The notes below the pieces were generated by a model. The model searched no databases. It was not told where the DNA came from and saw only the letters and a program-made list of their open reading frames with translations. From Solirubrobacterales bacterium (GTDB taxonomy: Bacteria; Actinomycetota; Thermoleophilia; Solirubrobacterales; JACPNS01), in contig JACPNS010000007.1 of NCBI GenBank assembly GCA_016185345.1, positions 1 through 46,134 of the forward strand: DNA of 46,134 nt, written 5' to 3'. A program made the translations under genes and the position numbers. Positions 253-29,733 of the stretch are shown here, piece by piece. Numbering within the stretch: position 1 is the stretch's first letter; every line of letters begins with the position of its first letter.

Positions 253-2139
253 GTGACCCGCGCCAAGCAGATCTCGCGAGTTGTCTTCGGCCTTCTCGTG
301 CTCGCCACGTTCTTTTCGTTCTTCGTCGCGCAACGGCTGAAGAGCACGGATCCGCTGGTCTACTCGGTGAACATCAAGCGATACATCTCGCCGAATGCGG
401 ATGGGGTGCGTGACAAGGGGCGGGTTCGGTTCAGGACCAAGAAGGCCGACGTCGTTCGCGTCGAGGTTGTTGACCGCACCGGCAGCCCAGTGCGCGTCCT
501 CGCCGACGACGAGAAGCTCGAAGCGGGACCGCACACCTTCTACTGGAACGGTCGCTACCGCGGGTTCCTCGACGCCCAGGGCAACAAAAACCGCGGGGCC
601 GCCGTGGCCGACGGCGCTTACCGCGTGCGGATCACGATGCGGGACAACGGGCGAACTTTCGTGCCGGACCAGTTCTTCGTCGTCGATTCCGTGGCACCAG
701 AGCTCTCCGCGACCGTCAACGGTGGACACACGATCTCGATCCTCCAGGAACGCAAGCCGGTCAGGGTCAGTTTCAGCGGCGTCGAAGGAACCCGGCGCGC
801 CGTCTTTCTTGTCTACCGCGTGCGCGGACAGCGCGCTGGCGCAAAGCCGATCGCCTCGTTTTTCAGCGAACGCGGAAAGAACAGCGGAACCTGGGATCAG
901 ACAGTCGGATACTTCCGCGAGTGGAGCGAGCCGTGTCTTGGCGTCAAGCGCAGTGGGCGCGCTCGACCGGCGCCGGTTAGCAGCTACGTGATCATCGCGA
1001 AGGCGTGTGATGCGGCGGGCAACCAGGGGACCAGCAGCACGACGCTGCCGCCGCGGGCGGGAACAACTCGTGGACTCTCCGGCATCACGCTTACGGGAGT
1101 TCAAATCGCGCCGCCGGTAATGCCAGTGATGATCGACGCACGCACGAGTTTCCGCGTAAACCCGCCGAGCGGGGGGTACAACTACAGGCTCCAGCGTGTC
1201 GGCGGCCGGGCCGTTGCGACTGGCCGTGGACGCGGTCCGACGCTGCGAATCGACATCCCGCGCACGTCTGCCGGGCTCTACACGCTCCGCGTCGCGGCGC
1301 GCAGGCCGGTGCGCGGCGATCGCGGCATCGCGAGGACGCCAGTGGCGGTCAATGCGGGTCGAAGCAAGAAGTTCATGATCGTTCAGCCCTCAATCGCCTG
1401 GCAGGCAACCAACCCTGTTGACACGACCGGTGACGGATTCTCCGACGCCTACCCGCAGCTCCCGCCGGGCAAGCAGCAGAGCATCGCGCTGAATCGCTTC
1501 CTTGCGCTGCAGTCGGGGACGGTTGGATTCGAATCGCAGGAAGGCGCGTTGTCTGAGTACCTGACGACCTCGCAACGAGGGCTCTCCGCGCAGACAACGA
1601 CCGATGCCGCGCTTGCCGCAGACCCTACGGCCGCCTTGAAAGGCAAAGATGCAATCCTGTTCACCGGTGACGAGCGCTGGATCACGGCCGAGCTCGGCGT
1701 TGCGCTGCGCGCGTTCGTCCAGCGCGGGGGTAAGGTCGCGTTCTTCTCGGCCGATGCGTTCCGCCGCACCGTCTCGCTCACCACCACCGACGTGGTTGGC
1801 CCGACCGAGCACCGCCAACGCGACATCTTCGGCGAGACGGTTCAATCAGTCAGCGAGGCGCCGGCTCCGGTCATCGCGTTCCAGGATGAACTCGGATTGC
1901 TGCGAGGCCCGACCGGACTGTTCACAAACTTCGAGCAGTCCAGGCAACAGGCCAGGGGCGCCGAGATCCTCACGGCTGCCGGTCGAGAAGCCGGCGCACC
2001 GGCGCTGATCGGTTACAAGCTCGGCAAGGGCACCGTGATTCGAGTCGGCGTGCGCGGCTGGTCTGCGGAACTCGCGGGCGGCGAACAGCCGAACGTCGCC
2101 TACACCACCGCCGCGATCATCGAGGTGCTGACGCGATGA
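253..2139 (+). CDS. Membrane-anchored FlgD-Ig-like / DMFase-like C-terminal domain protein
   Basis: This 628-residue protein starts at GTG 253. One N-terminal membrane segment (about residues 9-26) is followed by a FlgD-type Ig-like domain (about 40-150). That domain carries SPNADGVRD and a GPHTFYWNGR strand, a pattern seen in cell-surface and secretion-linked proteins. The middle is beta-rich. The last third (about 385-600) resembles the C-terminal, glutamine-amidotransferase-like domain of N,N-dimethylformamidase beta-subunit relatives: KDAILFTGDERWIT, then LRAFVQRGGKVAFFSAD. I see no evidence for amidase activity itself. Its stop overlaps the next ATG by 4 nt, so it is probably co-translated with the O-antigen ligase-like gene and acts outside the cell in surface-polymer assembly. 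The exact role is unknown. Confidence 0.7.
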   Translation: MTRAKQISRVVFGLLVLATFFSFFVAQRLKSTDPLVYSVNIKRYISPNADGVRDKGRVRFRTKKADVVRVEVVDRTGSPVRVLADDEKLEAGPHTFYWNGRYRGFLDAQGNKNRGAAVADGAYRVRITMRDNGRTFVPDQFFVVDSVAPELSATVNGGHTISILQERKPVRVSFSGVEGTRRAVFLVYRVRGQRAGAKPIASFFSERGKNSGTWDQTVGYFREWSEPCLGVKRSGRARPAPVSSYVIIAKACDAAGNQGTSSTTLPPRAGTTRGLSGITLTGVQIAPPVMPVMIDARTSFRVNPPSGGYNYRLQRVGGRAVATGRGRGPTLRIDIPRTSAGLYTLRVAARRPVRGDRGIARTPVAVNAGRSKKFMIVQPSIAWQATNPVDTTGDGFSDAYPQLPPGKQQSIALNRFLALQSGTVGFESQEGALSEYLTTSQRGLSAQTTTDAALAADPTAALKGKDAILFTGDERWITAELGVALRAFVQRGGKVAFFSADAFRRTVSLTTTDVVGPTEHRQRDIFGETVQSVSEAPAPVIAFQDELGLLRGPTGLFTNFEQSRQQARGAEILTAAGREAGAPALIGYKLGKGTVIRVGVRGWSAELAGGEQPNVAYTTAAIIEVLTR

Positions 2140-3674
2140 TGCAGCTAGGAGTTGTAGGCGCGCTCGAGAGCCTCGGCCTCGTGTTGATTGCTGCGCTGAT
2201 CGCAGGCTGGCTACTCGCCTCGAGCGAACGCATGCGCTGGACCAGCGCCGTGCTCGTGCTCGTGCTCACGCCGCTCGTGCTCGCCGGTTCAGTTGTCGGC
2301 GACGAGCAGTCGAGCCTGCCAGAACTCTCTGCTCCTTTGATCGGGGCTGGTTTGATCGCCGGTGTGATCGCGCTGGCGGCGGTCGCCGCGGTGTTCGTGA
2401 AGTACCCCCGCGCCGTAATGCCGATCGCTCTCGCCACGATCGCCTTCCGCGTGCCGATTGACATCGGCGGCGACTCAGTGAAGCTTCTGCTCCCGCTCTA
2501 CCTGACGATCGGCGGCGCCGTCGTTGCGCGCGCGTGGATGTACTGGCGCGGACGCGCGCTCGATGCTCCTCGCGGGCCGAAGCTGCTGGACCTCACGATC
2601 GTGGCCTTCCTCGGCCTCTACGCAATCCAGAGCCTCTACGCCGACGACGTCTCGGTCGCCACCCAGAACTTCTGCTTCTTCTACGCGCCGTTCGTGTTGC
2701 TCTACGGCCTCGCTGCTTCGCAGAAGTGGGATGCCAAGTTGCTTCGCACCTGCTTTGTCACTCTCGTGTCAGTCGCGTTGGTGCTCGTCTTTGCGGGATT
2801 CATCGAGTTCGCCCGCGGTCGCTATCTGATCACGATCGGCGGATCGCAGCCCTCGGATTTTGACCCGTACTTCCGCGTGCAGTCGCTCTTCTTCGACCCG
2901 AACATCTACGGGCGGTTCCTGGCGGTCGTGATGCTCGTGGCGGCGGCGGTGATGCTCTTCACCGACAAGACCAAGCGCGTGCTCGGCGCGGCGTTGATCC
3001 TCGCGATCCTCTGGGCGGGACTGGTGCTGTCGCTCTCGCAGTCGAGCTTTGCTGCGCTGCTTTCTGGACTGATCGTGCTCGCGGCGCTTAGATGGAAGGC
3101 GAAACCTGTGCTGATCCTGACCGGGGCGGCGATGCTCCTCGGGGCGATCTTCGCGATCGCGTTCCCATCTGTGACCGGCGTAGAGCTGACAAGCGGCAAG
3201 GGTGCAGAGAGAGCAACGAGCGGGCGGCTCGACCTCGTGACCGGCGGCCTCACTCTGTGGAGCCAGAAGCCATTCTTCGGCCACGGCTCCGGTGACTTCT
3301 CCGAGTCCTACCGTGCCAACAAGCTCGCCAAGCGCACCGTCTTCGGACCGGCAAGCACGACCAAGTCCCACACCGCGCCACTGACGGTCGCGGCTGAGCA
3401 GGGGATCGTGGGGCTCGCGGCGTTCATCGCTCTGCTGGTCGCCGGATTCGGCGCGGTCTTCCGCAGAGTCGGCAGGGAGGACGGTCCGCGAAAACGTCCC
3501 GGCCTGGTCGCCCGCGTCGCAGTTGCCGCTGGCTTCACTGCGATCTTCGTTCATGCTCTGGCTTATGCCGCGTTCCTGGAGGACCCGCTGATGTGGGTGC
3601 TGCTCGGCTCCGCGGTCTCGCTCGCGGCCATCCCGCGCAACGGCGTCGAAGAAGAATCCAAAGAAACCTCGTGA
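2136..3674 (+). CDS. O-antigen ligase/polymerase (Wzy/WaaL-like) membrane protein
   Basis: A 512-residue, strongly hydrophobic protein with about 11-12 membrane segments. The Wzy_C/O-antigen ligase pattern is visible. A charged loop after helix 5 contains DPNIYGRFLAVV. A later helix carries LSLSQSSFAALLSG, and a periplasmic loop follows with GRLDLVTGGLTLW and FFGHGSGDFSESY. Members either polymerise lipid-linked glycan repeats or transfer glycans to an acceptor; sequence alone does not separate the two. It overlaps the preceding gene by ATGA and the following flippase gene by GTGA, so the three form one translationally coupled operon. Family is sure; polymerase versus ligase is open. Confidence 0.82.
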   Translation: MMQLGVVGALESLGLVLIAALIAGWLLASSERMRWTSAVLVLVLTPLVLAGSVVGDEQSSLPELSAPLIGAGLIAGVIALAAVAAVFVKYPRAVMPIALATIAFRVPIDIGGDSVKLLLPLYLTIGGAVVARAWMYWRGRALDAPRGPKLLDLTIVAFLGLYAIQSLYADDVSVATQNFCFFYAPFVLLYGLAASQKWDAKLLRTCFVTLVSVALVLVFAGFIEFARGRYLITIGGSQPSDFDPYFRVQSLFFDPNIYGRFLAVVMLVAAAVMLFTDKTKRVLGAALILAILWAGLVLSLSQSSFAALLSGLIVLAALRWKAKPVLILTGAAMLLGAIFAIAFPSVTGVELTSGKGAERATSGRLDLVTGGLTLWSQKPFFGHGSGDFSESYRANKLAKRTVFGPASTTKSHTAPLTVAAEQGIVGLAAFIALLVAGFGAVFRRVGREDGPRKRPGLVARVAVAAGFTAIFVHALAYAAFLEDPLMWVLLGSAVSLAAIPRNGVEEESKETS

Positions 3675-5203
3675 TCAGCTACCTCCGCAGGCTCGCAAAG
3701 ACCGGCTCGGCCTACACCGCGTCGAGCGTCCTGGCCAAGCTGATCGCGCTCTTCACGCTGCCGATCTACACGAAGTACGTCTCGCCCGCCGGCTTCGGAC
3801 AGGTCGAGATCATCGCCACAACGGTGATCGTGCTTTCGATCCTTTTCAGGCTCGGCGCGATCGAGGCGTTGCTGCGCTTCTACTTCCTCGACAAGTACGA
3901 CCCGCGCCAAGTCATCCGGACCGGCTTCTGGGGATTGGCGGTCACGACGACGATCGGTGTGGCGATCTGCTTCGCGCTGGCTGGTCCGCTCGCAACCATT
4001 CTGCTCCGCGACGCGCCGGGCGCAGACACGCTGGTGCAGATCGCGACGATCTGGTTCTGGTTTGCGACGTTCTACGAACTGCTGATGGCGCTCTTCCGGG
4101 TTGAGGAGAAGGCCGGCGCGTACGCGCTGGCGAGCATGACCAATGTGCTGATCACAGTGCCGCTCTCGTTGTGGTTCGTGATCGGCCGCGACATGGGAGC
4201 GGAAGGCCTCGTGCTCGGCAACGCGCTCGGCACGATGATCGTCGTCAGCGGGCTGCTGATCGTTCACGTCACTGCTGGCCGCATCCCAAAGCCCGGCCTG
4301 CCCCTCGCCAGCCCGATGCTGCGCTTCGGCCTACCGACCGTGCCGGGCGAGATCTCGCTCTACGCGCTCAACTGGGTCGATCGGATTCTGCTCGTGAACA
4401 TCCCGGCCTCGCGAACGGCCGGCCTCGCCGCCGCCGGCCTGTACTCGATCGCCTACAAGCTCTCTCAAGGTGTGACCATATTTGTGCGCGCCTTTCAACT
4501 CGCGTGGCCGCCGCTGGCCTACTCGATCAAGTCGGATGCCGAGGCCAAAGTCGTCTACGGGCGCGTGCTCACCTACTACCTCCTGATCACGGGCGGAGTG
4601 GTGACGGCGTTGACTCTGCTCGCGGGACCGCTGGTGCGGCTTCTGACTTCGCAGCCGGACTTCTACGCGGCCGATCGCGCTGTGCCGTATGTTGCGACGG
4701 GGGTTGTGTTCTACGGCGCGTACCTCGTGCTCGTCTCGGCAGTTGCCCGCATGGGCAAGACCGGCTCGCTCTTCCCCGTTGCTTTCGCGGGACTCGTGGT
4801 GAACATCGGCCTGGGCCTCCTGCTGATCCCCGACCACAACATCGTCGGCGCCGGCATCGCGCTCGTCGGCGCGTATCTCGTGCTGCTGGGTCTGATGTAC
4901 ATCCGCGCGCGCCAGACGCTGGGCATCGTGCTCGAGTGGCGAAGGATCTTGCAGATCGCCGGGGTCGCTGTGGCCGTGGCGGTGATCGGCGACAACCTGC
5001 TTGAACCTGTGGGCACGGCCGCCGTGTTCGAGCGCATCGCCTGGTGGTTCCTCTATCCAGCCCTGCTTCTGATCACCGGCTTCTTCAGCCGCGCGGAGCT
5101 TGCGCAAATCCGGGACGTCCGCGCGCTGATCAAGCGCGCCCGGGGTTCGAAGTCCTTGGGCGATCGGCCGGATGTCACGCAAGAGGTGCACGGGCCGGAG
5201 TAG
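3671..5203 (+). CDS. Wzx-type polysaccharide flippase (MVF/MATE-like)
   Basis: A 510-residue multi-helix transporter of the polysaccharide biosynthesis (Wzx/RfbX) family, which flips undecaprenyl-linked glycans to the outer face of the membrane. The N-terminus LAKTGSAYTASSVLAKLIAL and the loop PIYTKYVSPAGFGQVEI are typical of the family. I chose GTG 3671 because it overlaps the upstream TGA (GTGA) and the family homology begins directly there. The last ~20 residues (GSKSLGDRPDVTQEVHGPE) do not look like flippase sequence. They lie in a 46-nt segment that is a near copy of the antisense 3' end of the neighbouring phosphotransferase gene, so the tail is probably acquired. Confidence 0.85.
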   Translation: MISYLRRLAKTGSAYTASSVLAKLIALFTLPIYTKYVSPAGFGQVEIIATTVIVLSILFRLGAIEALLRFYFLDKYDPRQVIRTGFWGLAVTTTIGVAICFALAGPLATILLRDAPGADTLVQIATIWFWFATFYELLMALFRVEEKAGAYALASMTNVLITVPLSLWFVIGRDMGAEGLVLGNALGTMIVVSGLLIVHVTAGRIPKPGLPLASPMLRFGLPTVPGEISLYALNWVDRILLVNIPASRTAGLAAAGLYSIAYKLSQGVTIFVRAFQLAWPPLAYSIKSDAEAKVVYGRVLTYYLLITGGVVTALTLLAGPLVRLLTSQPDFYAADRAVPYVATGVVFYGAYLVLVSAVARMGKTGSLFPVAFAGLVVNIGLGLLLIPDHNIVGAGIALVGAYLVLLGLMYIRARQTLGIVLEWRRILQIAGVAVAVAVIGDNLLEPVGTAAVFERIAWWFLYPALLLITGFFSRAELAQIRDVRALIKRARGSKSLGDRPDVTQEVHGPE

Positions 5204-5336
5204 GGCTACGCCCGACAAGCCCACCATGCAAAGCCGACTAATCCACCAACCTTCGATCGCTAAAGCGCGCGCGTGACCCGAAAGCCCTGCGCGATCGCCC
5301 GGATCTGATGCAGGAGGTGCACGGCTCCGAGTAGGG
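5160..5336. repeat. 46-nt direct repeat spanning two convergent gene ends (copies 5160-5205 and 5291-5336)
   Basis: The two copies match at 38 of 46 positions with no gap, 131 nt apart. The right copy is the 3' end of the CDP-alcohol phosphotransferase on the minus strand. The left copy, read on the minus strand, still resembles that enzyme's C-terminus (VALLRPVHLLRDIRPIAQG against LLALLGAVHLLHQIRAIAQG). On the plus strand it forms the last codons and the stop of the flippase gene. Confidence 0.8.
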
Positions 5337-6171
5337 CGAGCAAGATTCCACGCGCCCAGATCGACTCCACCCGGTCGTCGCCCCAAGAGAGCAGCATGTC
5401 GATGATCGAGGCCGCGGCCACAAGGTTGATGAAGCCGGGAAAGACAATCAGCTGCCCGAAGTTCGTGTACCTGCTCCAGAGCCAGCCCCGGCCCGAGCCG
5501 CCGGCCATCGCTTCAGCACCTGACGCCTCAAGATTCAGAGCATCCGGGTCGCCACCCATGCGCGCCATCGCCGCCCGGACCATCGGCTCAGAGCCGCGCA
5601 GCTCGGGCCTGTCGCGGTAGACGCCCCACATTATGTGGTCGCGCGCGCTGTACGGAACCCGCACCAGCGAGAGAATCACGATCATCGCCGCGGCGAGCCA
5701 CCACCAGTCGCCGGTCTCGTGAAAGACGGCCCAGCCGAGCGCGCCGGTCATCAGCGCGGGGATGTAGTAGTGCCCGACCCAGTCCAGATACGCGCCCCCG
5801 GCGCCAGAACTCTTGCCCTCAATCTCGCGCTCGAAGCGCGCGAGCTCTCCGTCGCAGAAATCCAGCACGAACGAAAGTTGAAGCAGCAGGATCGCGGCGA
5901 TCTGCGCCCAGAAGGAGTTGATAGCCAGCAGCCCTGCTCCGACCAGTCCAATCAGGATCCCGACGACCGTCGTCTGGTTGGCGCTGATCCCGGTCGGCAG
6001 CAGCACCCGCGTGACGCGGATCGAAAGCTTGCGCACGCCGCGCGCATACACGCGCCGCAGGTCGCGCGGCTCGTCGGCCGCGCCGGTGCCCTCGCCGCCG
6101 CAGATCTTGATCAGCTCTGGGAGTGGCGGCAGATTCTTCCGCGAGATCTCTGCGCTGGTCGTCACAATCAC
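5260..6171 (-). CDS. CDP-alcohol phosphatidyltransferase family enzyme, variant active site
   Basis: A 303-residue integral membrane enzyme. The CDP-alcohol phosphotransferase motif is D104-FC-D107-G-EL-A-R112, then G126-AYL-D130-WVG-H134. The fourth, normally catalytic Asp is His here, and the gap between AR and G is longer than usual (13 instead of about 8). The family moves a phosphoalcohol from a CDP-alcohol to an acceptor alcohol and releases CMP. About six membrane segments follow a soluble N-terminus. GTG 6171 is used; GTG 6165 is equally possible, since a TACTGT box (6178-6183) precedes both. It is divergent from the NTP transferase and G1P dehydrogenase genes, which could supply its CDP-linked substrate. 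The substrate is inferred, not seen. Confidence 0.8.
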   Translation of the reverse strand: MIVTTSAEISRKNLPPLPELIKICGGEGTGAADEPRDLRRVYARGVRKLSIRVTRVLLPTGISANQTTVVGILIGLVGAGLLAINSFWAQIAAILLLQLSFVLDFCDGELARFEREIEGKSSGAGGAYLDWVGHYYIPALMTGALGWAVFHETGDWWWLAAAMIVILSLVRVPYSARDHIMWGVYRDRPELRGSEPMVRAAMARMGGDPDALNLEASGAEAMAGGSGRGWLWSRYTNFGQLIVFPGFINLVAAASIIDMLLSWGDDRVESIWARGILLALLGAVHLLHQIRAIAQGFRVTRAL

Positions 6172-6177
6172 CCCGAC

Positions 6178-6229
6178 AGTACTCGCTGGAAACGTCGTTC
6201 GAATCGCGTCGGCCAGTTGCCGGTACCGT
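6178..6229. promoter_or_regulatory. Divergent promoter pair between phosphotransferase and NTP transferase genes
   Basis: On the minus strand a TACTGT box (plus-strand 6178-6183) sits 4-10 nt before two candidate GTG starts. On the plus strand TACCGT (6224-6229) sits seven bases before ATG 6237. Both fit -10 boxes of leaderless transcripts. The 65-bp gap makes co-regulation of the two directions likely. Confidence 0.45.
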
Positions 6230-6236
6230 TCCGGAG

Positions 6237-6962
6237 ATGCCCGAGCTGCCCGTCATCTATCTCGCAGCCGGCCGCGGATCGCGGCTTGGCGACCTCACCG
6301 CAGATCAACCCAAGGCCGTGGTCGAGGTTGGCGGGCGCCCGCTCGCCGATCGCGCGTTTGCGTATCTGCGCGCGGCGGGGTTCGATCGCATCGTCGTGCT
6401 CACCGGACACGCCGCCGAAGCATTTGACGACTACGACGTCGAGACGATCTTCAACGATCGCTGGGAGACCGAGAACAACATCACTTCGCTCTGGCAGGCA
6501 CGCGGGATCGTCGCCGGTGGCTGCACGATCGTGAACTGCGACTTGCTCTTCGAGCCAGAACTCGCGCAGCGCCTCGCCGACACCAAGGGAACAGCGATCC
6601 TGGTGGATGACGTGCTTCAAGTTGACGAAGAATCAATGAAGGCCACTGAGACCGACGGCGGGCTCGACCGCCTGCACAAGTCGATCCCGCTGGCCACATC
6701 GATCGGCGAGTACATCGGCCTCACCCGCATCGATCCAGCCGACGGCCCGCGCCTTGCCGAGATCCTCGACGAGTTCATCGCCGCCGGAAACACGCAGGTC
6801 TATTACGAGGATGCGATCGAAGCGCTCTCGGAGGAGCGCTGCGTGCGCCTCGAGCGCATCGGCGGCGCCAAGTGGGTTGAGATCGACGACCACGATGATC
6901 TTGCCCGGGCGCGCGACGAAATTGCGCCGGCGATCGATGGGAAGGCTGCAGTCAGTGGCTGA
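6237..6962 (+). CDS. MobA/LicC-like NTP transferase (probable cytidylyltransferase)
   Basis: A 241-residue nucleotidyltransferase. The N-terminal signature LAAGRGSRLGDLTADQPKA is the nucleotide-binding loop and lysine of the sugar-1-phosphate/phosphocholine nucleotidyltransferase superfamily. Later come IVNCDLLFEPEL, in the usual position of the metal-binding Asp, and WVEIDDHDDL near the C-terminus, as in LicC-like cytidylyltransferases. The start is ATG 6237, where homology begins and a TACCGT box lies seven bases upstream; the frame is open further upstream but that part is not family-like. It overlaps the next gene and is divergent from the CDP-alcohol phosphotransferase. CTP:glycerol-1-phosphate cytidylyltransferase is an attractive assignment but is inference from the neighbours. 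A phosphocholine or phosphonate substrate is an alternative. Confidence 0.75.
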   Translation: MPELPVIYLAAGRGSRLGDLTADQPKAVVEVGGRPLADRAFAYLRAAGFDRIVVLTGHAAEAFDDYDVETIFNDRWETENNITSLWQARGIVAGGCTIVNCDLLFEPELAQRLADTKGTAILVDDVLQVDEESMKATETDGGLDRLHKSIPLATSIGEYIGLTRIDPADGPRLAEILDEFIAAGNTQVYYEDAIEALSEERCVRLERIGGAKWVEIDDHDDLARARDEIAPAIDGKAAVSG

Positions 6963-8031
6963 GGACATCGACCAACTGGTGTCGGCCATTGCCTCAACGA
7001 GGCAGATCGACCTTCCGCAGTTCTTGCGCAGCGTCGAAGGCAACGAGGCTTTGGCTGCCGAGCTCGCCGAGGTGCTGAGCGCGATCGATTCCGGGTCGCC
7101 GCTGATGGTGTCCGGAACTTCCCAATCAGCCGCTGTCTGCAACGACCTCAGAGTTTCCGGCGCCATGCGCGAGATCGTCCGCGACAACACCCGCAGCGAA
7201 GTCGAGCGCATCGCGGCCATCGCTGTGCGCGAGCACGATGCGCTGATCGCAGTCGGCGGCGGGCGCCCGATCGATGTCGCCAAGTCTGCGGCGCTGGCCT
7301 CCGGTCTGCCAGTCGTCGTCGTTCCGACTCAGCTTTCGGCAGATGGAATTGCCTCTCCGATCTCGGTGATCGCCGAAGCCGACGGCGCGGTGGTCAGCGA
7401 GCGCTCGTCGCTGCCCGTAGCTGTGCTCGCCGATCTGGAAACGCTTGCGGCAGCCCCGATCGGCTTCGCGCGCGCGGGGGTGGGGGATCTGCTGGGCAAC
7501 AGCAGCGCCCTGGTCGATTGGCGGATCGCGGCCGACGCAGAGAAGGACTCTGTCGATGATTTCGCAGCGCTGCTCTCAAGCTGCGCGCTGCTTCTGATCG
7601 ACGGCCTCGACCTTTCACCGCTTGGCAGCGGCAAGCTGACGATCGAACTTGCCCGCCGGCTGCTCGACGGGCTGGTCCTGAGCGGCCTCGCAATGGAGAT
7701 CGCTGGCTCCTCGCGCCCGTGCTCTGGTTCGGAACACCTGATCAGCCACGCGCTCGACCGACTTGAGCCGGGAACGGCCACGCACGGCGAGCAGGTCGCG
7801 TTCGGCACGCTCGTTGCCACGAAGCTGCAAGGCGGCGATGTTGACGCTGTTCGCGAGAGCATCGCCGCGGTCGGCATGAAAGGCGCGTTGACCGGTTTCG
7901 ACCTCGGCGCGGCGCGTCTGGCCGAGGTCGTCGCCTACGCACCTGCAACACGCCCGGGCCGATACACCGTGCTCGATCGCGATCGCCCCTCTGGCGCCGA
8001 GCTCCGCACGCTGCTTGAAGAGCTCCTGTAG
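6955..8031 (+). CDS. sn-Glycerol-1-phosphate dehydrogenase (EgsA/AraM-like)
   Basis: A 358-residue member of the iron-containing alcohol dehydrogenase/dehydroquinate synthase fold with the full glycerol-1-phosphate dehydrogenase pattern. GGGRPIDVAK (101-110) binds the NAD(P) phosphates. VPTQLSADGIASP carries metal ligand D130. GVGDLLGNSSALVDWRIA matches the family. SSRPCSGSEHLISHALD and THGEQVAFGT supply the histidine ligands (H261 or H265, and H277). The family reduces dihydroxyacetone phosphate to sn-glycerol-1-phosphate, the archaeal lipid enantiomer; in Bacillus AraM feeds a bacterial G1P lipid. I chose GTG 6955 because GGGAAGG (6939-6945) lies about 9 nt upstream; ATG 6937 is an alternative. 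It overlaps the NTP transferase gene, so product and substrate may be handed on. Confidence 0.82.
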   Translation: MAEDIDQLVSAIASTRQIDLPQFLRSVEGNEALAAELAEVLSAIDSGSPLMVSGTSQSAAVCNDLRVSGAMREIVRDNTRSEVERIAAIAVREHDALIAVGGGRPIDVAKSAALASGLPVVVVPTQLSADGIASPISVIAEADGAVVSERSSLPVAVLADLETLAAAPIGFARAGVGDLLGNSSALVDWRIAADAEKDSVDDFAALLSSCALLLIDGLDLSPLGSGKLTIELARRLLDGLVLSGLAMEIAGSSRPCSGSEHLISHALDRLEPGTATHGEQVAFGTLVATKLQGGDVDAVRESIAAVGMKGALTGFDLGAARLAEVVAYAPATRPGRYTVLDRDRPSGAELRTLLEELL

Positions 8032-8075: not shown

Positions 8076-8347
8076 TGCTGCACTGAATCGACGCTCTTGC
8101 ACGCGGCTTATCCCGTGTACCAGGTCGTTCCTTACTCAAGGGTCAGACCGAAAGCGCCGACAGAAGGTTGTTACTGAGAATTTCAGACTTTTCAGGCAGA
8201 CGGGTCCGTCGATCGGACCCAAGCAGTGAAGGAAACCAACAAGGGATGCAGGGAATGCACGGATGTGCGCGGAGTCAGGGCGGCACCCAGGGCTGTCGTG
8301 TGACAGTTCGACCGAATCGATCGGTGGAGGCAAGGGTTCAGAACTAC
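8076..8347 (+). promoter_or_regulatory. Leader region of the giant secreted protein gene, with a perfect hairpin
   Basis: This gene-free stretch (part of the 316 nt between stop 8031 and the chosen start) holds a perfect 7-bp hairpin: GGGTCCG (8202-8208), loop TCGAT, CGGACCC (8214-8220). The giant gene's frame stays open back to 8168, but the encoded residues (Gly/Gln/Arg-rich) do not look like a signal peptide, so I read it as untranslated leader. I looked for known riboswitch cores and recognised none. No clear -35/-10 pair is visible. Confidence 0.35.
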
Positions 8348-11300
8348 GTGACAAGGACGTCGCGAATTGCTCTTCTCACCCTGACGACTCTGGTCGCGGC
8401 GTGCATTTTTTCGGTCGCGCTGTTTGCGCAGACTGCGAACGCGAACGTAACGACGACCCTTGACGCGCGGTACCAGCAGAACGGCACGACTACCGAGATC
8501 CCGAATCCGGTCGCCGGCTCGCACCCCGACTTTCGTCAGACCCTGAACATCGGAGGGACCGACGACCTCCAGCGCCTCGTGCTCGACTTCCCGCCCGGAC
8601 TGATCGGCGACCCGAACGCGATCGCGGCGGCCAGTCGCTGCACAGTTAATTACACCGGGGTTACTTCGTCGAGCGGCAGCCCGAGTTATGCGGGATGCCC
8701 TGCATCGAGTCGGGTCGGAACAATTCGCGCCGTCGCAGAATCCGGGCTCACGTGTTCGGACATCACCCTGACCGGCTCGATATATCTGCTCCAGAACCGG
8801 CCCACTGCCAATCCCGAGGTCCCCGCCTATCTCGGCATCAACCTCTCTGGTAGCGCGAACGTATGGCTCCTCTTCTGCGCAGGTCTCACCGCGAACATGA
8901 ACATGACCGCGAGGATCACGCTGCGTCCGACTGACCAGGGCCTGCGCGTCGAGATCATCGACGACCTGCCAAAGACAGACCCGATCATCGGCGGAGACAT
9001 CCGGATCAGGCAGATCGATGAGACGATTTCCGGCATGGCTCCAAGCGGTAAGCCATTTCTGACGGCGCCAACGCGTTGCGGCGCGTCCTCGAGCTGGGAT
9101 ACAAACGTCTTCACGCGGGCCTACTCGTCGAATACGAACACGAACGCGAGTATCGACGGCACCGCTTACTTGTCCGCGAGTTCGTCGCGAACCGGTACCT
9201 GCACGGCTGCGGCTGCGCCTGCACACACCTTCTCGCTCACGCAGACCAACACGCGGCCTGGTGCGCCCGTAGGGCTGCGCGCAGTTCTGAACAATCCGGT
9301 CCCCACGACCAATGTCAACCAGGCCCCGTATGCGAAGAGCTTCTCGTTGGTCCTGCCGGTCGGCATGAAGGTGAACCCGGCCATCGGCGCCCGCCTGGGT
9401 GGCCCCGGCGGTGGATGTACGGAGGCGCAGTTCCTCCGCGCGGATGCGAACAACCCGGTCACCGCAGCGACGCCCACCTGTCCTACGACCAGTGAGGTCG
9501 GAAACGTTGCAGTCACCGTGCCGGAAATCACGGGCGATCTTTCTGGTCGCATCTATCTCGGCGAGCCGCGCGCGGGCGACGCTGCGGCAGGCATTTACCG
9601 CCTCTATATAAACGCTGCGCGCGGCGGGGTTGTGACCAAGTTTCAAGGCACTGCAACCGTAAACGCCAGCAACGGCCAGGTGACGGTCGCGGTGGACAAC
9701 GTCAACACCTACTTCACCGGACTGCCGCAGTTCAACTATTCGAGGTTCGACATGGACTTCAACTCGAACTCGGCCGGTATCGGCTCGCCGAGTTCCGGCG
9801 CGGTGACCAACCCGCAGGATGGCCAGCAGATGCTCGTGAACCCGCAGTGGTGTGGAGTTCACACCGCGAGTGCCACGGTCGTGCCCTGGACCTCACCGAC
9901 GCAGTCGAATGAGACCTTCCCGACGAGCCTCACCACCGCCGCCGAAGCTGGCGCCCCCTGCGCCTTCAACACCTTCAACACGACGAACGTGACCTTCTCT
10001 GCGAGGATGACCAACCCCGGCACCGGCTCCGGCGGCACGCTCAACGCCCGAGCCGGTCAGCATTCGGACCTCACACTGAACGTGGCCCGGGCCGACCGCA
10101 CGGACAATCTCAAGAACTTGGTGTTCAAACTTCCGGTCGGGTACGCCGGCTCGGCAAACGCAGTACCGACCTGTTCAGGTATCACTTCGTCCTCGCTCGG
10201 GACGTGCACCAACGCGAACGCCCTCGGATCCGCCGCGGTCACGGTTGGCAATGGACCGACCACGATCGCGATGTCCAGCACGATCTACAACGTCGTGACC
10301 GACAACAGCTCGCAGACGGCCAAGCTGGCGATCGTCACCCCGGCGAATGTCGGACCGTTCAGCCTGGGCAACGTCATCAACTACTCGATCCTGACGCTCG
10401 ACAACGCAACGTCCTTCCGTCTGGTTTCGACAACCGACCTCACGCAATCGATCCTGGGAGTCCCGATCGATTACCGAAACATCGCGCTGACCCTGAACGG
10501 CATGGCTGGCGCAACGCCATTTCTGACCAATCCGTCGGAGACCTGCGGCCAGCCACTCGTGTTCGACGCGGCGATCACCGCGGCGGGCAACCCGAACGGC
10601 GCCTCCGGTACACCGACGACGCCTGGCCCGGCCATTACGCCAGCGAACTCAACCCCGCAGTCGCTCGACTGCACAACCAGCGTGCAGCCCTTCACCCCGG
10701 GACTCGCCGTAACGCCGACCACACTCGCGACTGCGCAGCCGACCGGACTGACGCTCACCGTTTCGCAGTCGCAGACTGCAGCGACCACGCAACAGTCCAC
10801 GATCAAGGACGTGACGGTCACGATGCCGACCGGCCTTGAGATCAACCCGGGATTCGCGGCGTCAGCGACGGCCTGCCCCACTGGAACGATCACGGCCGAC
10901 ATCGCCGCGAAGACCAACACCTGCGCCGGTACGGCCACGAAGATCGCCGATGTGACGGTCAACACTCCGTTGCTGGCGACGGCAGTGACCGGCCAGATGT
11001 ATCTCGAACAGCCGGGCGGAACACCCACGACTCGCTACAGGTTTGTTCTCTACATCAGCATGCCCGGCGGCATGATGATCGTCCGTGGCGGTGCGACGCT
11101 GAATGGCTCGAGCGCCGGCGGGGTTTCCGGCAGCACCGGGGCCGTGAACAGCGGAACTGGCCAGCTTGTCGCGACCTTCACGGGCCTTCCCGACGTGCCG
11201 TGGTCGTCGATGGCTCTCAACTTCAACAGCACGACGCCGATGTTCGTCAACTCCGACACGATCGGCACGCAGACCTTCACCGGCAGCTTTGCGCCCTACT

Positions 11301-25468: not shown

Positions 25469-26392
25469 TCACACACCGTGCGCTTCGTTCCAGGCCGCGG
25501 CAGCTTCACGCAGACCTTGGCCGTGAGACGGTTGGATCGCCGCACGTGCGTGCCAAAGAAATCGTTTCGGCTCGTGCCGCCGAGTGATCGCAGATGCGAG
25601 CGCGCGCTCGAGGTAGGTGATCGCGACGAGCACGCGCACGATCCCCGCCTGAGCTGCCCCATGGTGCTTGCGCATGTAGAGATCGCGCCCGCGGTGATAC
25701 TCCACGATCCGCCGCCTCGCAGAGTCACCGTGGGAGAGCCCCTCGCGGTGAAAGACCTTCGCGCCAGGCACGTAGAGCGTGTAGCCGCCGGCGTCAGCAA
25801 GTCGCTTGCACAGATCCACCTCATCGCCGTAGACGAAGAAGTCCTCATCAAGGTTCCCGATTGCGTTCGAGCGTTCGGTTCGCAAGAGCAACGCCGCAGA
25901 CTGAGCCCAGTCAACCCGGCGAGTCTCGCTGCCACCGCTCTGAACAGTGAAGACGCGATGCAGCCAGAAGACACCGGCGAGCGCCGTGCCAACGCTCGTG
26001 AACTTCCAAGCACACGGCTGCGCGACTCCGTCGGCGTTCATCAGCAACGCGCCAGCAGCAGCGGCATCGGGATCAGCTCGCAGCGCCTCGATCAGGGCAG
26101 CGACCGCACCTTCGGTGATTTCGGAATCCTCGTTGAGCAGCAACGCAAACTCACCCCGAGCCTCACGCAAGAGCCGCGAGTCATTCGCCGCCTTGCCCTC
26201 ACGCCGCGTCAGCTGAATCAACCGCACATGCTCGCGCCCAGCCGCGTACTCCGGCGACCCATCATCAGAAGCATTGTCAAGCAGCAGCGTCTCGTAGGAA
26301 ACGCCCTCCGGCGTCCAATTCTCGATCGCGTCGAGGCACTTCTTCAGCAGCTCGCCGCCGTTGGTGTTGACGATGCAATACGACAGATCCAC
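25469..26392 (-). CDS. GT2-family glycosyltransferase (rhamnosyltransferase WbbL-like)
   Basis: A 307-residue GT-A glycosyltransferase. The N-terminus YCIVNTNGGELLKKCLDAI and LLLDNASDDGS form the nucleotide-sugar binding fold. LLLNEDSEI holds the metal-binding Asp motif, and DEDFFVYGDEVDLCKRL is the acceptor/catalytic-base region typical of WbbL-like rhamnosyltransferases. It would act at the cytoplasmic membrane face, adding a sugar from a nucleotide donor to a lipid-linked glycan; the sugar cannot be read from sequence. Start GTG 26392 has a TACGCT box seven bases upstream and no Shine-Dalgarno. It is divergent from the GT4 gene, 46 bp away, and first in a two-gene unit. Confidence 0.82.
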   Translation of the reverse strand: MDLSYCIVNTNGGELLKKCLDAIENWTPEGVSYETLLLDNASDDGSPEYAAGREHVRLIQLTRREGKAANDSRLLREARGEFALLLNEDSEITEGAVAALIEALRADPDAAAAGALLMNADGVAQPCAWKFTSVGTALAGVFWLHRVFTVQSGGSETRRVDWAQSAALLLRTERSNAIGNLDEDFFVYGDEVDLCKRLADAGGYTLYVPGAKVFHREGLSHGDSARRRIVEYHRGRDLYMRKHHGAAQAGIVRVLVAITYLERALASAITRRHEPKRFLWHARAAIQPSHGQGLREAAAAWNEAHGV

Positions 26393-26399
26393 GGCCGCG

Positions 26400-26432
26400 A
26401 GCGTACCGGCCGCCGCCTCGCCCAGCGATAAT
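26400..26432. promoter_or_regulatory. Back-to-back leaderless promoters between two glycosyltransferase genes
   Basis: The minus-strand box TACGCT (plus coordinates 26400-26405) is seven bases from GTG 26392. The plus-strand box GATAAT (26427-26432) is six bases from ATG 26439. Each promoter's -35 region must overlap the other's -10 in this 46-bp gap. Confidence 0.5.
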
Positions 26433-26438
26433 CCCCCG

Positions 26439-27527
26439 ATGCGCGTCCGAGTCGTCGATCCACCTGCCTACACGCCGCCCTACGACCACGCGCTCTGCGC
26501 GGCGCTCGCTGCTGCCGGGGCGGAAGTTGAACTGGTCACCTCCGAGTTCCGCCACGGCCCGCGCCCGGCGCCGGACGGCTACGCGCTGAACGATCACTTC
26601 TACCGCGTGAACGGCCCGATGCCGATCAAGCTCGCGCAGCACCCGATCGACATGTTGCGCCTGCGCCGCTTGCCCAAGTCCGATGTCACGCATTTCCAGT
26701 GGCTGCCGATCCAGGCGATCGATCGTCACCTGCTGCCCAAGGGCCCGACGGTCCTGACGGCCCACGACGTGATCCCGCGCGAGCCGCGCCCCGGCCAGCT
26801 CGGGGCGCTGGGCAAGACCTACAACGCGGTCGACGCGGTCGTCGCTCACAGCCGCCACGGCCGCGACGTCCTGATCGAGGCGCTGGATGTGGAAGCGGCG
26901 AAGGTCCACGTGATCCCTCACGGAGTCTTCGAACACCTCACCAAGGTCCCGAACCCCAAGCCGCTCCCACCCGAGCTCGCCGCCGTCGAGAAGCCAGTCG
27001 TCCTGCAGTTCGGATTGATGCGCCCCTACAAGGGAATCGACCTGATGCTCGAGGGCTTTGCCGCCGCTGACCCGGACGCCGAGCTCTGGCTCGCCGGCGC
27101 CGCGCGCATGGACACCGAAGTTCTCAAGACACTCGCCAGCAACCTCGGCATCGCCGACCGCGTCCGCTGGATCGAACGCTTCATCGGTGACGACGAGCTG
27201 GCGGCCTACTTCGAGCGCGCCGACGTGGTCGCGTTGCCGTACCGCCAGATCGACCAATCGGGAGTGCTTTTCACCGCGCTCGCATTCGGCAAGCCGCTGC
27301 TGCTCACGCGGGTCGGAGGCTTCAGCGAAATCGCGGATGATCACCAAGCAGCGCTCGCCGTCGCACCCGACGACCTGACCGCCATCGCTCGCGGCCTGAC
27401 CGAGCTGCTCGGTAACGATTCCGAACGCGAGCGTCTCAGCGCTTCCGCGATGGTATTGGCGGACGGCGAATTCGGTTGGTCCGCGATCGCACAGAGAACT
27501 TTGGAGCTCTACTCAGCTCTCCTGTAG
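26439..27527 (+). CDS. GT4-family glycosyltransferase
   Basis: A 362-residue GT-B enzyme. The N-terminal half begins RVRVVDPPAYTPPYDHALC; the interdomain part has VHVIPHGVF; the C-terminal donor domain has LQFGLMRPYKGIDLMLEGF. The region matching the GT4 E-x7-E segment is PYRQIDQSGVLFTALAFGKP, where the first Glu appears replaced. The start is ATG 26439, where family homology begins; the frame is open to 26361 but would overlap the divergent gene. A GATAAT box lies six bases upstream. Probable role: cytoplasmic addition of a sugar in the same glycan pathway as the neighbouring GT2. Donor and acceptor are unknown. Confidence 0.82.
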   Translation: MRVRVVDPPAYTPPYDHALCAALAAAGAEVELVTSEFRHGPRPAPDGYALNDHFYRVNGPMPIKLAQHPIDMLRLRRLPKSDVTHFQWLPIQAIDRHLLPKGPTVLTAHDVIPREPRPGQLGALGKTYNAVDAVVAHSRHGRDVLIEALDVEAAKVHVIPHGVFEHLTKVPNPKPLPPELAAVEKPVVLQFGLMRPYKGIDLMLEGFAAADPDAELWLAGAARMDTEVLKTLASNLGIADRVRWIERFIGDDELAAYFERADVVALPYRQIDQSGVLFTALAFGKPLLLTRVGGFSEIADDHQAALAVAPDDLTAIARGLTELLGNDSERERLSASAMVLADGEFGWSAIAQRTLELYSALL

Positions 27528-27536
27528 CCTGCGAGT

Positions 27537-28565
27537 GTGAAGCGTTCGCAGCTGTCTATCCCGCTCTCCTTTGTAATTCTCGCGATCGCCGCTGCATCCG
27601 CGTCGGCAGCCACTCCCTACGGAAGCAAGCTTGCCTATCCGCCGAACCAAACACCATGCGGCTTTGCGTCCAACGCCGGTTCGGGTCCCACCTGGGTTCC
27701 AGGCGCATATGCGTACTGCACCTTCATTCAACGGACGGCACCGTTGTCGCTGGCTCATCCGGCAGTAAATCCCATTCAAAGCTCGGGAGTGATCACCCAA
27801 GTACGAACCTCGTTCGGCACGCCACCGCCCGCGACGTCGGGTGGATCGATCGCGTTGCAAAGCTTCGACGGTGCGGACCTGCGAGCCGACAAGGTCTCAG
27901 ACCCGATCCTCTTGCCAGCGTCGCCGGGGACGTACGCATTTCCCACTCGCCTTCCGGTGACCGCGGGCCAGCTCATCGGCCTTCGCCTCGGAATGCGAAT
28001 CGGATCGATCAATCCCGGTGGCGCCATCTCGATCCCGGTTGCCTTTGAGGACACTGGTTCTGGCAGTGCGGGCACGTTCACCGGTCAGTTCGGGACGGTC
28101 GCACCCGGGTCAACCGCCTCGTCATCTTCAATCAACGTCACGAACGGATTGCTTCAGCTCGCTTGGGACGTCGAGCCCGACGAGAACGGCGACGGTTTCG
28201 GCGACGAGACGCAGGACGCCATCGCTCCACTACTGCGCCGGGACGGATCTCGCAAGCAGCGCGTTGTCTTGCGCAAGAGCGTCCGCCTCGCGGTGACGTC
28301 CAACGAATCTGGATTCGTCAACGTCTCGGGAACCATGCGCATCGGCGCCGCGAAGAAGTCGACGAAGCTCGCGGCGCAAGATTTCCCGGTGGCCAGAGAC
28401 GTGAACACAAAGATTGCATTCGTCGTCAAGAAGAGTCTCCTGAAAAAGATCTCTGCAGGGTTGAAGAAAAAGCGGACGGTCACGATCAAGCTGGTGGTCG
28501 TCGCCCGTGACCGTGCTGGCAACCCATCAGCACCTCAGACGCTCAAGCTCACAGCCAAGAAATAG
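27537..28565 (+). CDS. Secreted protein with DxNxDGxxD-type motif and basic C-terminal domain
   Basis: A 342-residue exported protein. The Sec signal peptide (MKRSQLSIPLSFVILAIAAA) probably ends at SASA, near residue 24. A beta-rich middle is followed by EPDENGDGFGDETQD, a calcium-binding, thrombospondin-type-3-like acidic loop, at about residues 214-228. The last ~110 residues form a Lys-rich beta domain (KKSLLKKISAGLKKKRTVTI and RDRAGNPSAPQTLKLTAKK). This layout is common for secreted proteins of Solirubrobacterales-like actinobacteria (general knowledge, not searched). GTG 27537 follows the GT4 stop by 9 nt. A TAGCCT box lies six bases upstream, but its TAG is the upstream stop codon, so promoter evidence here is weak. 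Function unknown. Confidence 0.7.
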   Translation: MKRSQLSIPLSFVILAIAAASASAATPYGSKLAYPPNQTPCGFASNAGSGPTWVPGAYAYCTFIQRTAPLSLAHPAVNPIQSSGVITQVRTSFGTPPPATSGGSIALQSFDGADLRADKVSDPILLPASPGTYAFPTRLPVTAGQLIGLRLGMRIGSINPGGAISIPVAFEDTGSGSAGTFTGQFGTVAPGSTASSSSINVTNGLLQLAWDVEPDENGDGFGDETQDAIAPLLRRDGSRKQRVVLRKSVRLAVTSNESGFVNVSGTMRIGAAKKSTKLAAQDFPVARDVNTKIAFVVKKSLLKKISAGLKKKRTVTIKLVVVARDRAGNPSAPQTLKLTAKK

Positions 28566-28584
28566 CCACAGCGCCGCGACCCGC

Positions 28585-28590
28585 GATAAT
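28585..28590 (+). promoter_or_regulatory. GATAAT -10 box of the membrane GT2 gene
   Basis: The sequence GCGATAATC occurs here nine bases before ATG 28600. The same 9-mer precedes the GT4 gene (26425) and the phosphoglycosyl transferase gene (30437), suggesting a shared promoter type for the glycan genes. Confidence 0.5.
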
Positions 28591-28599
28591 CGACGCCCG

Positions 28600-29733
28600 A
28601 TGCGCACCGCCCTCGAGATCATCTTCTGGCTGTCCGCTGGCCTGCTCATCTATGCGCAGTTCGGCTACCCGCTACTGCTCGCGATCTTCTCAGGGCCCGC
28701 GCCGCAGGCGCCGAGCAAAGCCGACTACCCAAGCGCCACCCTGATCATCGCCGCCTACGCCGAGGCCACCGTGATCGAGGCCAAGGTCAAGAACGCCCTC
28801 GCGCTCGACTACCCACGCGAGTGCCTGCAGATCATCGTCGCCTGCGACGGTTCGCCAGACGACACGCCGGCAATCGCCCGCGCAGCAGGAGCCGACCTCG
28901 TGCTCGACCTCCCGCACGGCGGCAAGATGGCCGCGCAGAACACCGCCGTCGAGCAGGCAACCGGCGAAATCCTCGCCTTCAGCGACGCCAACACAATGTG
29001 GGAGCCCGACGCGCTCAAGCGCCTCATCGATGCATTCGAAGAACCCGGCATCGACTACGTCTGCGGCCGGGTCAACTTCGTCAACGAGACCGGCGACAAC
29101 CAGGAAGGTCTCTACTGGCGATACGAGATGTGGCTGCGCGCTCGCGAGTCTTCGTTGAGGTCAGTCACCGCAGGCAACGGCGCGATCTATGCGGTTGACC
29201 CCGCGACCTACAAGGCGATCTCCCCCGTAACCGGCCACGACCTTACGCTCCCATTCCGCACCGTCAAACTCGGCGGCCGCGCAATCGACGCACCAGCGGC
29301 CCGCGCCTCCGAGGTCATGGTTCCGAACATCAGCGGTGAGTTCAAACGCAAGCGCCGCATGATGAGCTTTGCCTGGCCGATCATTCTCGGCGGCGGGATG
29401 CTCAAGCCCAAGGGTTACGGCGCGACCTACACGTGGATGATCTTCTCGCACCGCGTACTGCGTTACGAGGCGCCGTTCCTGCATCTGGCCGCGCTGATCA
29501 CCAGCGCGATCCTCGCGCCGGAGTCCACGCTCTACCTCGTGCTCCTGATCCTCCAGCTTGCGCTTCTGCTCGCCGCACTCATTGCGCCGATCATCAAGTT
29601 CAAGCCCTTCTTGGTCGCTCGCTACTACGTGCTCACAACTGCGTCTGTCGCGCTCGGGTTGGTGGACTACATGAGGAAGGGCACCGAGCAGATCCTCGAC
29701 GAGGGCTGGACGCCGCCAGAAGGAACGCGTTAG
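28600..29733 (+). CDS. Membrane-bound GT2-family glycosyltransferase (BcsA/HAS-like layout)
   Basis: A 377-residue enzyme with one N-terminal membrane helix (IIFWLSAGLLIYAQFGYPLL), a cytoplasmic GT-A domain (LIIAAYAEATVIEAKVKNAL, IIVACDGSPDDT, AFSDANTMWEPDAL, TAGNGAIYAV, VTGHDLTLPFR) and about three C-terminal membrane helices. This matches membrane glycosyltransferases that extend or cap surface polysaccharides. The Q-x-x-R-W motif of truly processive synthases is not visible; the matching place reads GEFKRKRRM. It may therefore add single sugars. ATG 28600 is chosen for the hydrophobic start and the GATAAT box. Its stop overlaps the converging relic gene by 4 nt. Confidence 0.8.
   Translation: MRTALEIIFWLSAGLLIYAQFGYPLLLAIFSGPAPQAPSKADYPSATLIIAAYAEATVIEAKVKNALALDYPRECLQIIVACDGSPDDTPAIARAAGADLVLDLPHGGKMAAQNTAVEQATGEILAFSDANTMWEPDALKRLIDAFEEPGIDYVCGRVNFVNETGDNQEGLYWRYEMWLRARESSLRSVTAGNGAIYAVDPATYKAISPVTGHDLTLPFRTVKLGGRAIDAPAARASEVMVPNISGEFKRKRRMMSFAWPIILGGGMLKPKGYGATYTWMIFSHRVLRYEAPFLHLAALITSAILAPESTLYLVLLILQLALLLAALIAPIIKFKPFLVARYYVLTTASVALGLVDYMRKGTEQILDEGWTPPEGTR

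Follow-up and report, generated by a model that had tools for sequence, protein, structure and literature searches.

A candidate bacterial route to CDP-activated sn-glycerol-1-phosphate at an envelope glycan locus

Organization of the three-gene locus

The stretch of DNA considered here (the window) comprises 46,134 nucleotides from a Solirubrobacterales bacterium (assembly GCA_016185345.1, contig JACPNS010000007.1), and is one contig (C7) of a 2.43-Mb genome that is 97% complete. Its subject is a set of three genes, which encode: (i) a membrane enzyme resembling the cytidine diphosphate (CDP)-alcohol phosphotransferases (5260..6171, minus strand; 303 aa); (ii) a nucleotidyltransferase of the LicC/PntC type (6237..6962, plus strand; 241 aa); and (iii) a homologue of sn-glycerol-1-phosphate (G1P) dehydrogenase (G1PDH; 6937..8031, plus strand). 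All three genes are intact and lie where the initial annotation of this sequence had placed them, with the overlap and the divergence that it described. The nucleotidyltransferase open reading frame (ORF) opens mechanically at 6123, its likely start being the ATG at 6237, and the dehydrogenase ORF runs from 6754, with a likely start at either the ATG at 6937 (364 aa) or the GTG at 6955 (358 aa); the two genes overlap by 8–26 nt. The phosphotransferase gene is divergent from this nucleotidyltransferase-dehydrogenase pair (hereafter, the pair), with 65 bp between them. Taken together, the three genes probably constitute a dedicated cytosolic route to CDP-activated G1P that is used on an envelope glycan. 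The direct observations behind this reading are the identity and adjacency of the genes, the co-occurrence of the pair with TagF, the lack of lipid-pathway and TagD alternatives over cut-off, and the surface context of the locus.

The dehydrogenase

Against the NCBIfam models, the dehydrogenase scores 222 bits with the G1PDH model NF002022 (ORF residues 82–409), as compared to 74 bits with the glycerol-dehydrogenase model. The 222 bits do not reach the archaeal equivalog cut-off of NF002022 (413 bits); among control genomes, AraM-encoding Bacillus subtilis is matched as well, and only 3 of the 8 matching control genomes pass that cut-off. Judged from its sequence, the window protein is a G1PDH homologue and not an archaeal EgsA equivalog. 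A sequence search of solved structures returns 3ce9 (148 bits) and the archaeal G1PDHs 5fb3 and 4rgq (139 and 119 bits, respectively), with lower scores for AraM (72 bits) and for glycerol dehydrogenases (67 bits at most). The structure model of the dehydrogenase (pLDDT 92.9) matches 3ce9 (Z 40.6), 5fb3 (Z 39.6), 4rgq with NADPH and dihydroxyacetone phosphate (DHAP) (Z 38.8), and AraM (Z 37.7), and a gap separates these four structures from the first glycerol dehydrogenase, which reaches only Z 32.9. In both sequence and fold, the protein is closer to G1PDH than to glycerol dehydrogenase.

Conserved residues point in the same direction. The window protein keeps 47 of the 58 columns that are invariant across 30 archaeal-clade G1PDHs, as compared to 27 kept by E. 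coli GldA. The G1PDH signature SSRPCSGSEHLISHALD is conserved together with the three metal-ligand positions, in that the Asp, His and His of GDLLGN, SSRPCSGSEHLISH and THGEQ, known as the metal binders of this family, align to those of 4rgq and 5fb3. The stretch SSRPCSGSEHLxSHALD is common to the window dehydrogenase and the archaeal enzymes, and is not found in GldA. The signature, the metal-ligand positions, the NF002022 match and the column count agree with the G1PDH pattern that the initial annotation had reported. Archaeal EgsA (4RGQ, 5FB3) and Bacillus AraM (9H4X) resemble the window enzyme in fold, metal ligands, the SRPxSGxEH motif and alignment over the full length. On the other hand, the window enzyme is not in the company of GGGPS/PcrB but is coupled to a nucleotidyltransferase, and its NF002022 score of 222 bits stays below the archaeal equivalog cut-off of 413 bits. 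Two observations weigh against the proposed reading: the closest structure, 3ce9, is an uncharacterised clostridial protein that is called a glycerol dehydrogenase, and the branch of the window dehydrogenase is long (~2 changes per column) and unsure in its placement. GpsA is present in 15 of the 16 genomes checked, the host included, so that ordinary sn-glycerol-3-phosphate (G3P) does not depend on the dehydrogenase.

The nucleotidyltransferase

The nucleotidyltransferase matches PF12804 with 62.8 bits (cut-off 27), and has both the nucleoside triphosphate (NTP)-transferase fold and the LAAGxGxRL..PK signature. A profile built from 17 orthologues finds LicC (1jyk), PntC (6pd1) and the inositol-phosphate cytidylyltransferase IPCT (4jd0/2xme) as the closest solved structures. 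LicC is a cytidine triphosphate (CTP):phosphocholine cytidylyltransferase, and LicC, PntC and the inositol-phosphate cytidylyltransferases all use CTP. The window enzyme is thus a candidate CTP:glycerol-1-phosphate cytidylyltransferase, for which specificity toward both CTP and G1P is predicted. In contrast to LicC, which acts on phosphocholine, and PntC, which acts on a phosphonate, its fixed partner is a dehydrogenase rather than choline kinase or phosphonate genes, and no phosphoenolpyruvate (PEP) mutase exceeds the cut-off.

The homology to G1PDH on the one side, and the resemblance of the transferase to PntC and LicC on the other, could suggest archaeal-type ether lipid synthesis, or the decoration of a product with phosphonate or choline. 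Either is exceedingly improbable, as no PcrB/GGGPS exceeds the cut-off in the 18 genomes that carry the pair (see below), the window genome giving no match, and as the matches to PEP mutase are weak and under the family score, again with no match in the host genome.

Conservation of the pair

A survey of 299 Thermoleophilia genomes finds the dehydrogenase strongly matched (E below 1e-40) in 17 genomes other than the host, and a nucleotidyltransferase gene is adjacent in 17 of 17. Within the genus of the window, genome G172 keeps the arrangement of all three genes and G127 keeps the pair. Three contexts can be distinguished: (i) a wzy-wzx-CDP-alcohol phosphotransferase arrangement with the pair, in the window genus; (ii) the pair with a larger CDP-alcohol phosphotransferase that has an NTP-transferase-like half, a second CDP-alcohol phosphotransferase gene and a Wzm/Wzt exporter; and (iii) the pair accompanied by a mannitol dehydrogenase, a HAD hydrolase and a divergently oriented gene of the TagF family. 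In a wider search that includes this class set, a nucleotidyltransferase lies beside the dehydrogenase in 55 of 68 non-archaeal loci, as opposed to none of 30 archaeal-clade loci. The pair is seen in Micromonosporaceae, Nocardiopsis, Clostridium, Fictibacillus and Thermoactinomycetaceae, and further in Kerfeldbacteria, Stahlbacteria, a Chlamydiae metagenome-assembled genome and Arenibacter. The three-gene set is also present in the cultured actinomycetes Salinispora and Micromonospora. Some G1PDH homologues with no nucleotidyltransferase nearby (L085, L087, L090, L094, L111, L114, L122 and L127) belong to Lachnospiraceae, Acidaminococcaceae and unclassified relatives.

Because the window family had served as query for the set of 68 loci, the search was repeated with the archaeal model NF002022 in a sample of 396 Actinomycetota genomes (the phylum sample), the best 30 loci of which were inspected. 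In these 30, many of which come from one genus with genomes of 6–10 Mb, probably Streptomyces, a nucleotidyltransferase gene lies beside the dehydrogenase gene in 26 and a CDP-alcohol phosphotransferase gene likewise in 26, often overlapping it. The counts across genomes are not independent, and the case built on them is weakened to that extent. The three-gene arrangement, which is kept in G172 and of which the pair recurs across phyla, is far beyond chance, and the pair, rather than being peculiar to the host genome, is a module found widely in bacteria. Of the conserved company of three genes that the initial annotation had asked for, the pair holds in all three counts (17/17, 55/68 and 26/30), but the third partner is not constant, being either a CDP-alcohol phosphotransferase or TagF.

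TagF, TagD and the identity of the product

Enzymes of the TagF family use CDP-glycerol or CDP-ribitol as donors. In Solirubrobacterales, Nocardioidaceae, Clostridium sulfidigenes and Arenibacter, a gene of this family (PF04464, 182–390 bits) adjoins the pair. Of the 299 Thermoleophilia genomes, 18 carry the pair and 10 have a full-length TagF; each of these 10 also carries the pair (Fisher 3e-14, uncorrected for relatedness). In the phylum sample, a strong G1PDH is present in 22 of the 34 genomes with TagF (p 9e-15, not phylogeny-corrected), and TagD (at least 110 bits) is found in none of these 22, as opposed to 4 of the 12 other TagF genomes (p 0.01, uncorrected for relatedness). Likewise, TagD does not exceed the cut-off in any of the 18 pair genomes, and has no match at all in four TagF-bearing pair genomes and none in the window genome. 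These TagF and TagD counts fit the pair as an alternative source of CDP-glycerol.

The comparison with the TagD/TagF route to wall teichoic acid is instructive in this regard. Both share the logic of spending cytosolic CDP-glycerol on a surface polymer, and the TagF family is also the partner of the pair in several related loci. They differ in that a GT-A-type transferase stands in place of TagD, and in that the window carries a CDP-alcohol phosphotransferase in a genome without TagF. The predicted enantiomer would be opposite to that of the TagD/TagF route, since the G1PDH product replaces GpsA-derived G3P.

Two points weigh against the main reading here. The window genome itself lacks TagF, and so the identity of the product leans on relatives. 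In addition, genes for a mannitol dehydrogenase and a HAD hydrolase lie beside the TagF gene at L040, L044, L047, L049 and L050, and a second polyol may therefore be involved. These genes, the use of CDP-ribitol by TagF enzymes, and the long branch of the window dehydrogenase would agree with an enzyme that reduces some other ketose phosphate, the pair then making a CDP-polyol other than CDP-glycerol (e.g., C4–C6) for a teichoic-acid-like polymer. This is unlikely, however, as the columns and signature of archaeal G1PDHs are for the most part retained, the G1PDH model clearly outscores other dehydrogenase models, and the mannitol dehydrogenase is not found in the contexts with a CDP-alcohol phosphotransferase, the window included.

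The CDP-alcohol phosphotransferase

The best NCBIfam match of the third protein is the CDP-alcohol phosphotransferase half of Thermococcales IPCT/DIPPS (2e-12), and its predicted fold (pLDDT 75) is nearest to AF2299 (Z 16.4 over 215 residues) and to Archaeoglobus IPCT-DIPPS (Z 14.8), which places it within the CDP-alcohol phosphotransferase fold. The motif elements D-x2-D-G-x2-A-R and G-x3-D are present. Three features weigh against assigning it to the pathway. Its PF01066 score of 20.1 bits is just under the 22-bit gathering cut-off; the fourth motif Asp is replaced by His, leaving the full D-x2-D-G-x2-A-R...G-x3-D-x3-D incomplete; and in G127 the orthologue is on another contig than the pair, its place at the locus being occupied by an unrelated 316-aa ORF. 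The fourth Asp is regarded as the catalytic base in the CDP-alcohol phosphotransferase superfamily. As His could also serve as a base, the substitution is unusual but disproves nothing. His at this position is common to related actinobacterial stand-alone copies, with a longer spacer in the window genus, and Asp is kept in the Micromonosporaceae copies and in larger proteins that have a nucleotidyltransferase-like N-terminal half. The CDP-alcohol phosphotransferase protein at the related locus L041 passes PF01066 with 34.1 bits. The His subfamily lies beside the G1PDH gene in actinobacteria at the window locus and at L041, L042, L045, L046, L069, L091, L093, L109 and L138.

With its relocation in one genome of the same genus, its replacement by TagF in others and its altered residue, the phosphotransferase is the least constant part of the set. 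The pair might feed an unlinked enzyme, the divergent phosphotransferase gene belonging to another pathway, as the separate contig in G127, the weak Pfam score and the altered fourth residue would allow. This is rather improbable given that all three genomes of the genus have an orthologue (those of the other two being 82 and 65% identical to the window protein), and that 26 of the best 30 phylum-sample loci have a CDP-alcohol phosphotransferase gene next to the pair or to its dehydrogenase, often with an overlap.

As a separate observation, a larger CDP-alcohol phosphotransferase protein with a nucleotidyltransferase-like N-terminal half, similar to IPCT/DIPPS, lies beside the pair at L041 (2086–3885), L042, L045 and L046, which implies a second CDP-activated unit at these loci.

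Surface context and alternative destinations

A Wzx-type flippase (3593..5203, plus strand; PF01943) and a polymerase/ligase with an O-antigen ligase domain (Wzy/ligase; 2136..3674, plus strand; PF04932) precede the three genes in the window, and both are kept at the locus in G172 and G127. The true start of the flippase gene is probably later, because the mechanical ORF begins within the preceding gene. In relatives with further-reaching contigs, LytR_C and CapD-like genes are also found, and LCP-type ligases are present in 16 of the 16 genomes checked. Of the possible destinations of the product, a surface polymer has the best support.

The Archaeoglobus pathways to glycerophosphoinositol and DIPP share the logic of a GT-A-type cytidylyltransferase followed by a CDP-alcohol phosphotransferase, and CDP-1-glycerol is a reported precursor of archaeal glycerophosphoinositol (PMC8262930). 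Since AF2299 and the DIPP synthase are nearest to the window phosphotransferase, and relatives have the larger protein with a nucleotidyltransferase-like half beside the pair, the enzyme could use a soluble acceptor and form glycerophospho-inositol or another small glycerophospho compound as an Archaeoglobus-like compatible solute. There, however, a soluble solute is made in an archaeon, while here the genes lie in a Wzx/Wzy glycan locus of a bacterium; the LytR_C and CapD-like neighbours within the genus, the Wzm/Wzt exporter in others, and TagF in place of the phosphotransferase at yet other loci all make a solute doubtful, with little likelihood.

Another potential acceptor is diacylglycerol. 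The CDP-alcohol phosphotransferase fold includes choline phosphotransferases, and the head group of phosphatidylglycerol also has the sn-1 configuration, such that a Kennedy-type transfer from CDP-1-glycerol to diacylglycerol would fit in stereochemistry. This route to phosphatidylglycerol is very unlikely in view of a PgsA/Cls-like CDP-alcohol phosphotransferase gene elsewhere in the genome, the surface-glycan neighbours, and TagF at related loci.

Proposed pathway and its implications

In the proposed pathway to an envelope glycan, the dehydrogenase would reduce DHAP with NAD(P)H to G1P, apart from the G3P that is made by GpsA for membrane lipids. The LicC/PntC-type transferase could then couple G1P to CTP to form CDP-1-glycerol, as a non-homologous counterpart of TagD. 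The membrane CDP-alcohol phosphotransferase may subsequently transfer phosphoglycerol, at the cytoplasmic face, to an acceptor that is most likely the polyprenyl-linked glycan of the locus, which Wzx would flip and Wzy/ligase would polymerise or attach. The dehydrogenase and the cytidylyltransferase form the constant part of this scheme, because a TagF-type enzyme would perform the third step in relatives. The order from DHAP through G1P and CDP-glycerol to a glycerophospho-linked surface product, as initially suggested for this locus, gains support from the adjacency of the pair, the exchange with TagF, GGGPS and TagD not exceeding their cut-offs, and a normal GpsA; the scheme predicts the stereochemistry of G1P, the specificity for CTP, the acceptor and the sequence in which the enzymes act.

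Bacterial CDP-glycerol is regarded as sn-3, and sn-1-glycerophosphate polymers have so far been explained by phosphatidylglycerol head groups. The sn-3 polymer is cleaved by the glycerophosphodiesterase GlpQ. This stereospecific enzyme distinguishes between the enantiomers of glycerophosphate (PMC7086022). The parts described here are of known kinds; what is new is their combination. A 2021 paper considered CDP-1-glycerol likely absent from bacteria, with envelope glycerol-1-phosphate coming from other donors (PMC8262930). A deep clan of bacterial G1PDHs has been treated as phospholipid machinery and as evidence on ancestral membrane lipids (PMC6431249). In one passage of a 2026 paper, araM, tagGH, a CDP-alcohol phosphatidyltransferase and a nucleotidyltransferase are placed in one Streptomyces syntenic region (PMC13118837). 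This is the same gene set, noted there as associated with teichoic acid; that passage gives co-location only, and no pathway, substrate, stereochemistry or wider distribution. The pathway proposed here was not found in the open-access literature.

A broader proposition is evenly balanced: that most bacterial G1PDHs, those of the PcrB-linked AraM type excepted, are not lipid enzymes but open a widespread cytosolic CDP-sn-glycerol-1-phosphate pathway to surface polymers, with a glycerol stereochemistry opposite to that of CDP-glycerol wall teichoic acid, and with TagF and the CDP-alcohol phosphotransferase as interchangeable finishers. If true, the bacterial pair would overturn the statement that CDP-1-glycerol is likely absent (PMC8262930), provide a second way to sn-1-glycerophosphate polymers, and explain the donor source for many TagF enzymes without TagD. 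For the debate on the lipid divide, the bacterial G1PDH gene neighbourhoods described here point to walls and capsules, as opposed to the lipid reading (PMC6431249).

Neighbouring genes

The initial annotation had also named a flippase, a polymerase/ligase and glycosyltransferases as neighbours, and the family matches agree. In addition to the PF01943 and PF04932 proteins described above, the window encodes a family 2 glycosyltransferase (25469..26392, minus strand; PF00535, 55.7 bits), a family 4-type glycosyltransferase (26361..27527, plus strand; PF00534/PF13439) and a membrane family 2 glycosyltransferase (28507..29733, plus strand; PF00535, 72.1 bits). Upstream of the polymerase/ligase lies a gene for an envelope-type protein of 628 aa (253..2139, plus strand) with weak FlgD-Ig and DMFA2_C matches, and at this position the other genomes of the genus have genes of comparable size (626 and 631 aa).

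Directly downstream of the three genes, a 5601-aa predicted surface protein is encoded at 8168–24973 (plus strand). It consists of ~1.3-kb repeats (roughly 430 aa each) that are 60–80% alike at the DNA level, and its first 1500 aa have no Pfam match; large ORFs occupy the same position in the same-genus genomes. A squalene/phytoene synthase gene is present on the same contig at 39499–40428 (minus strand), and crtB is likewise listed with araM in the Streptomyces syntenic region (PMC13118837).

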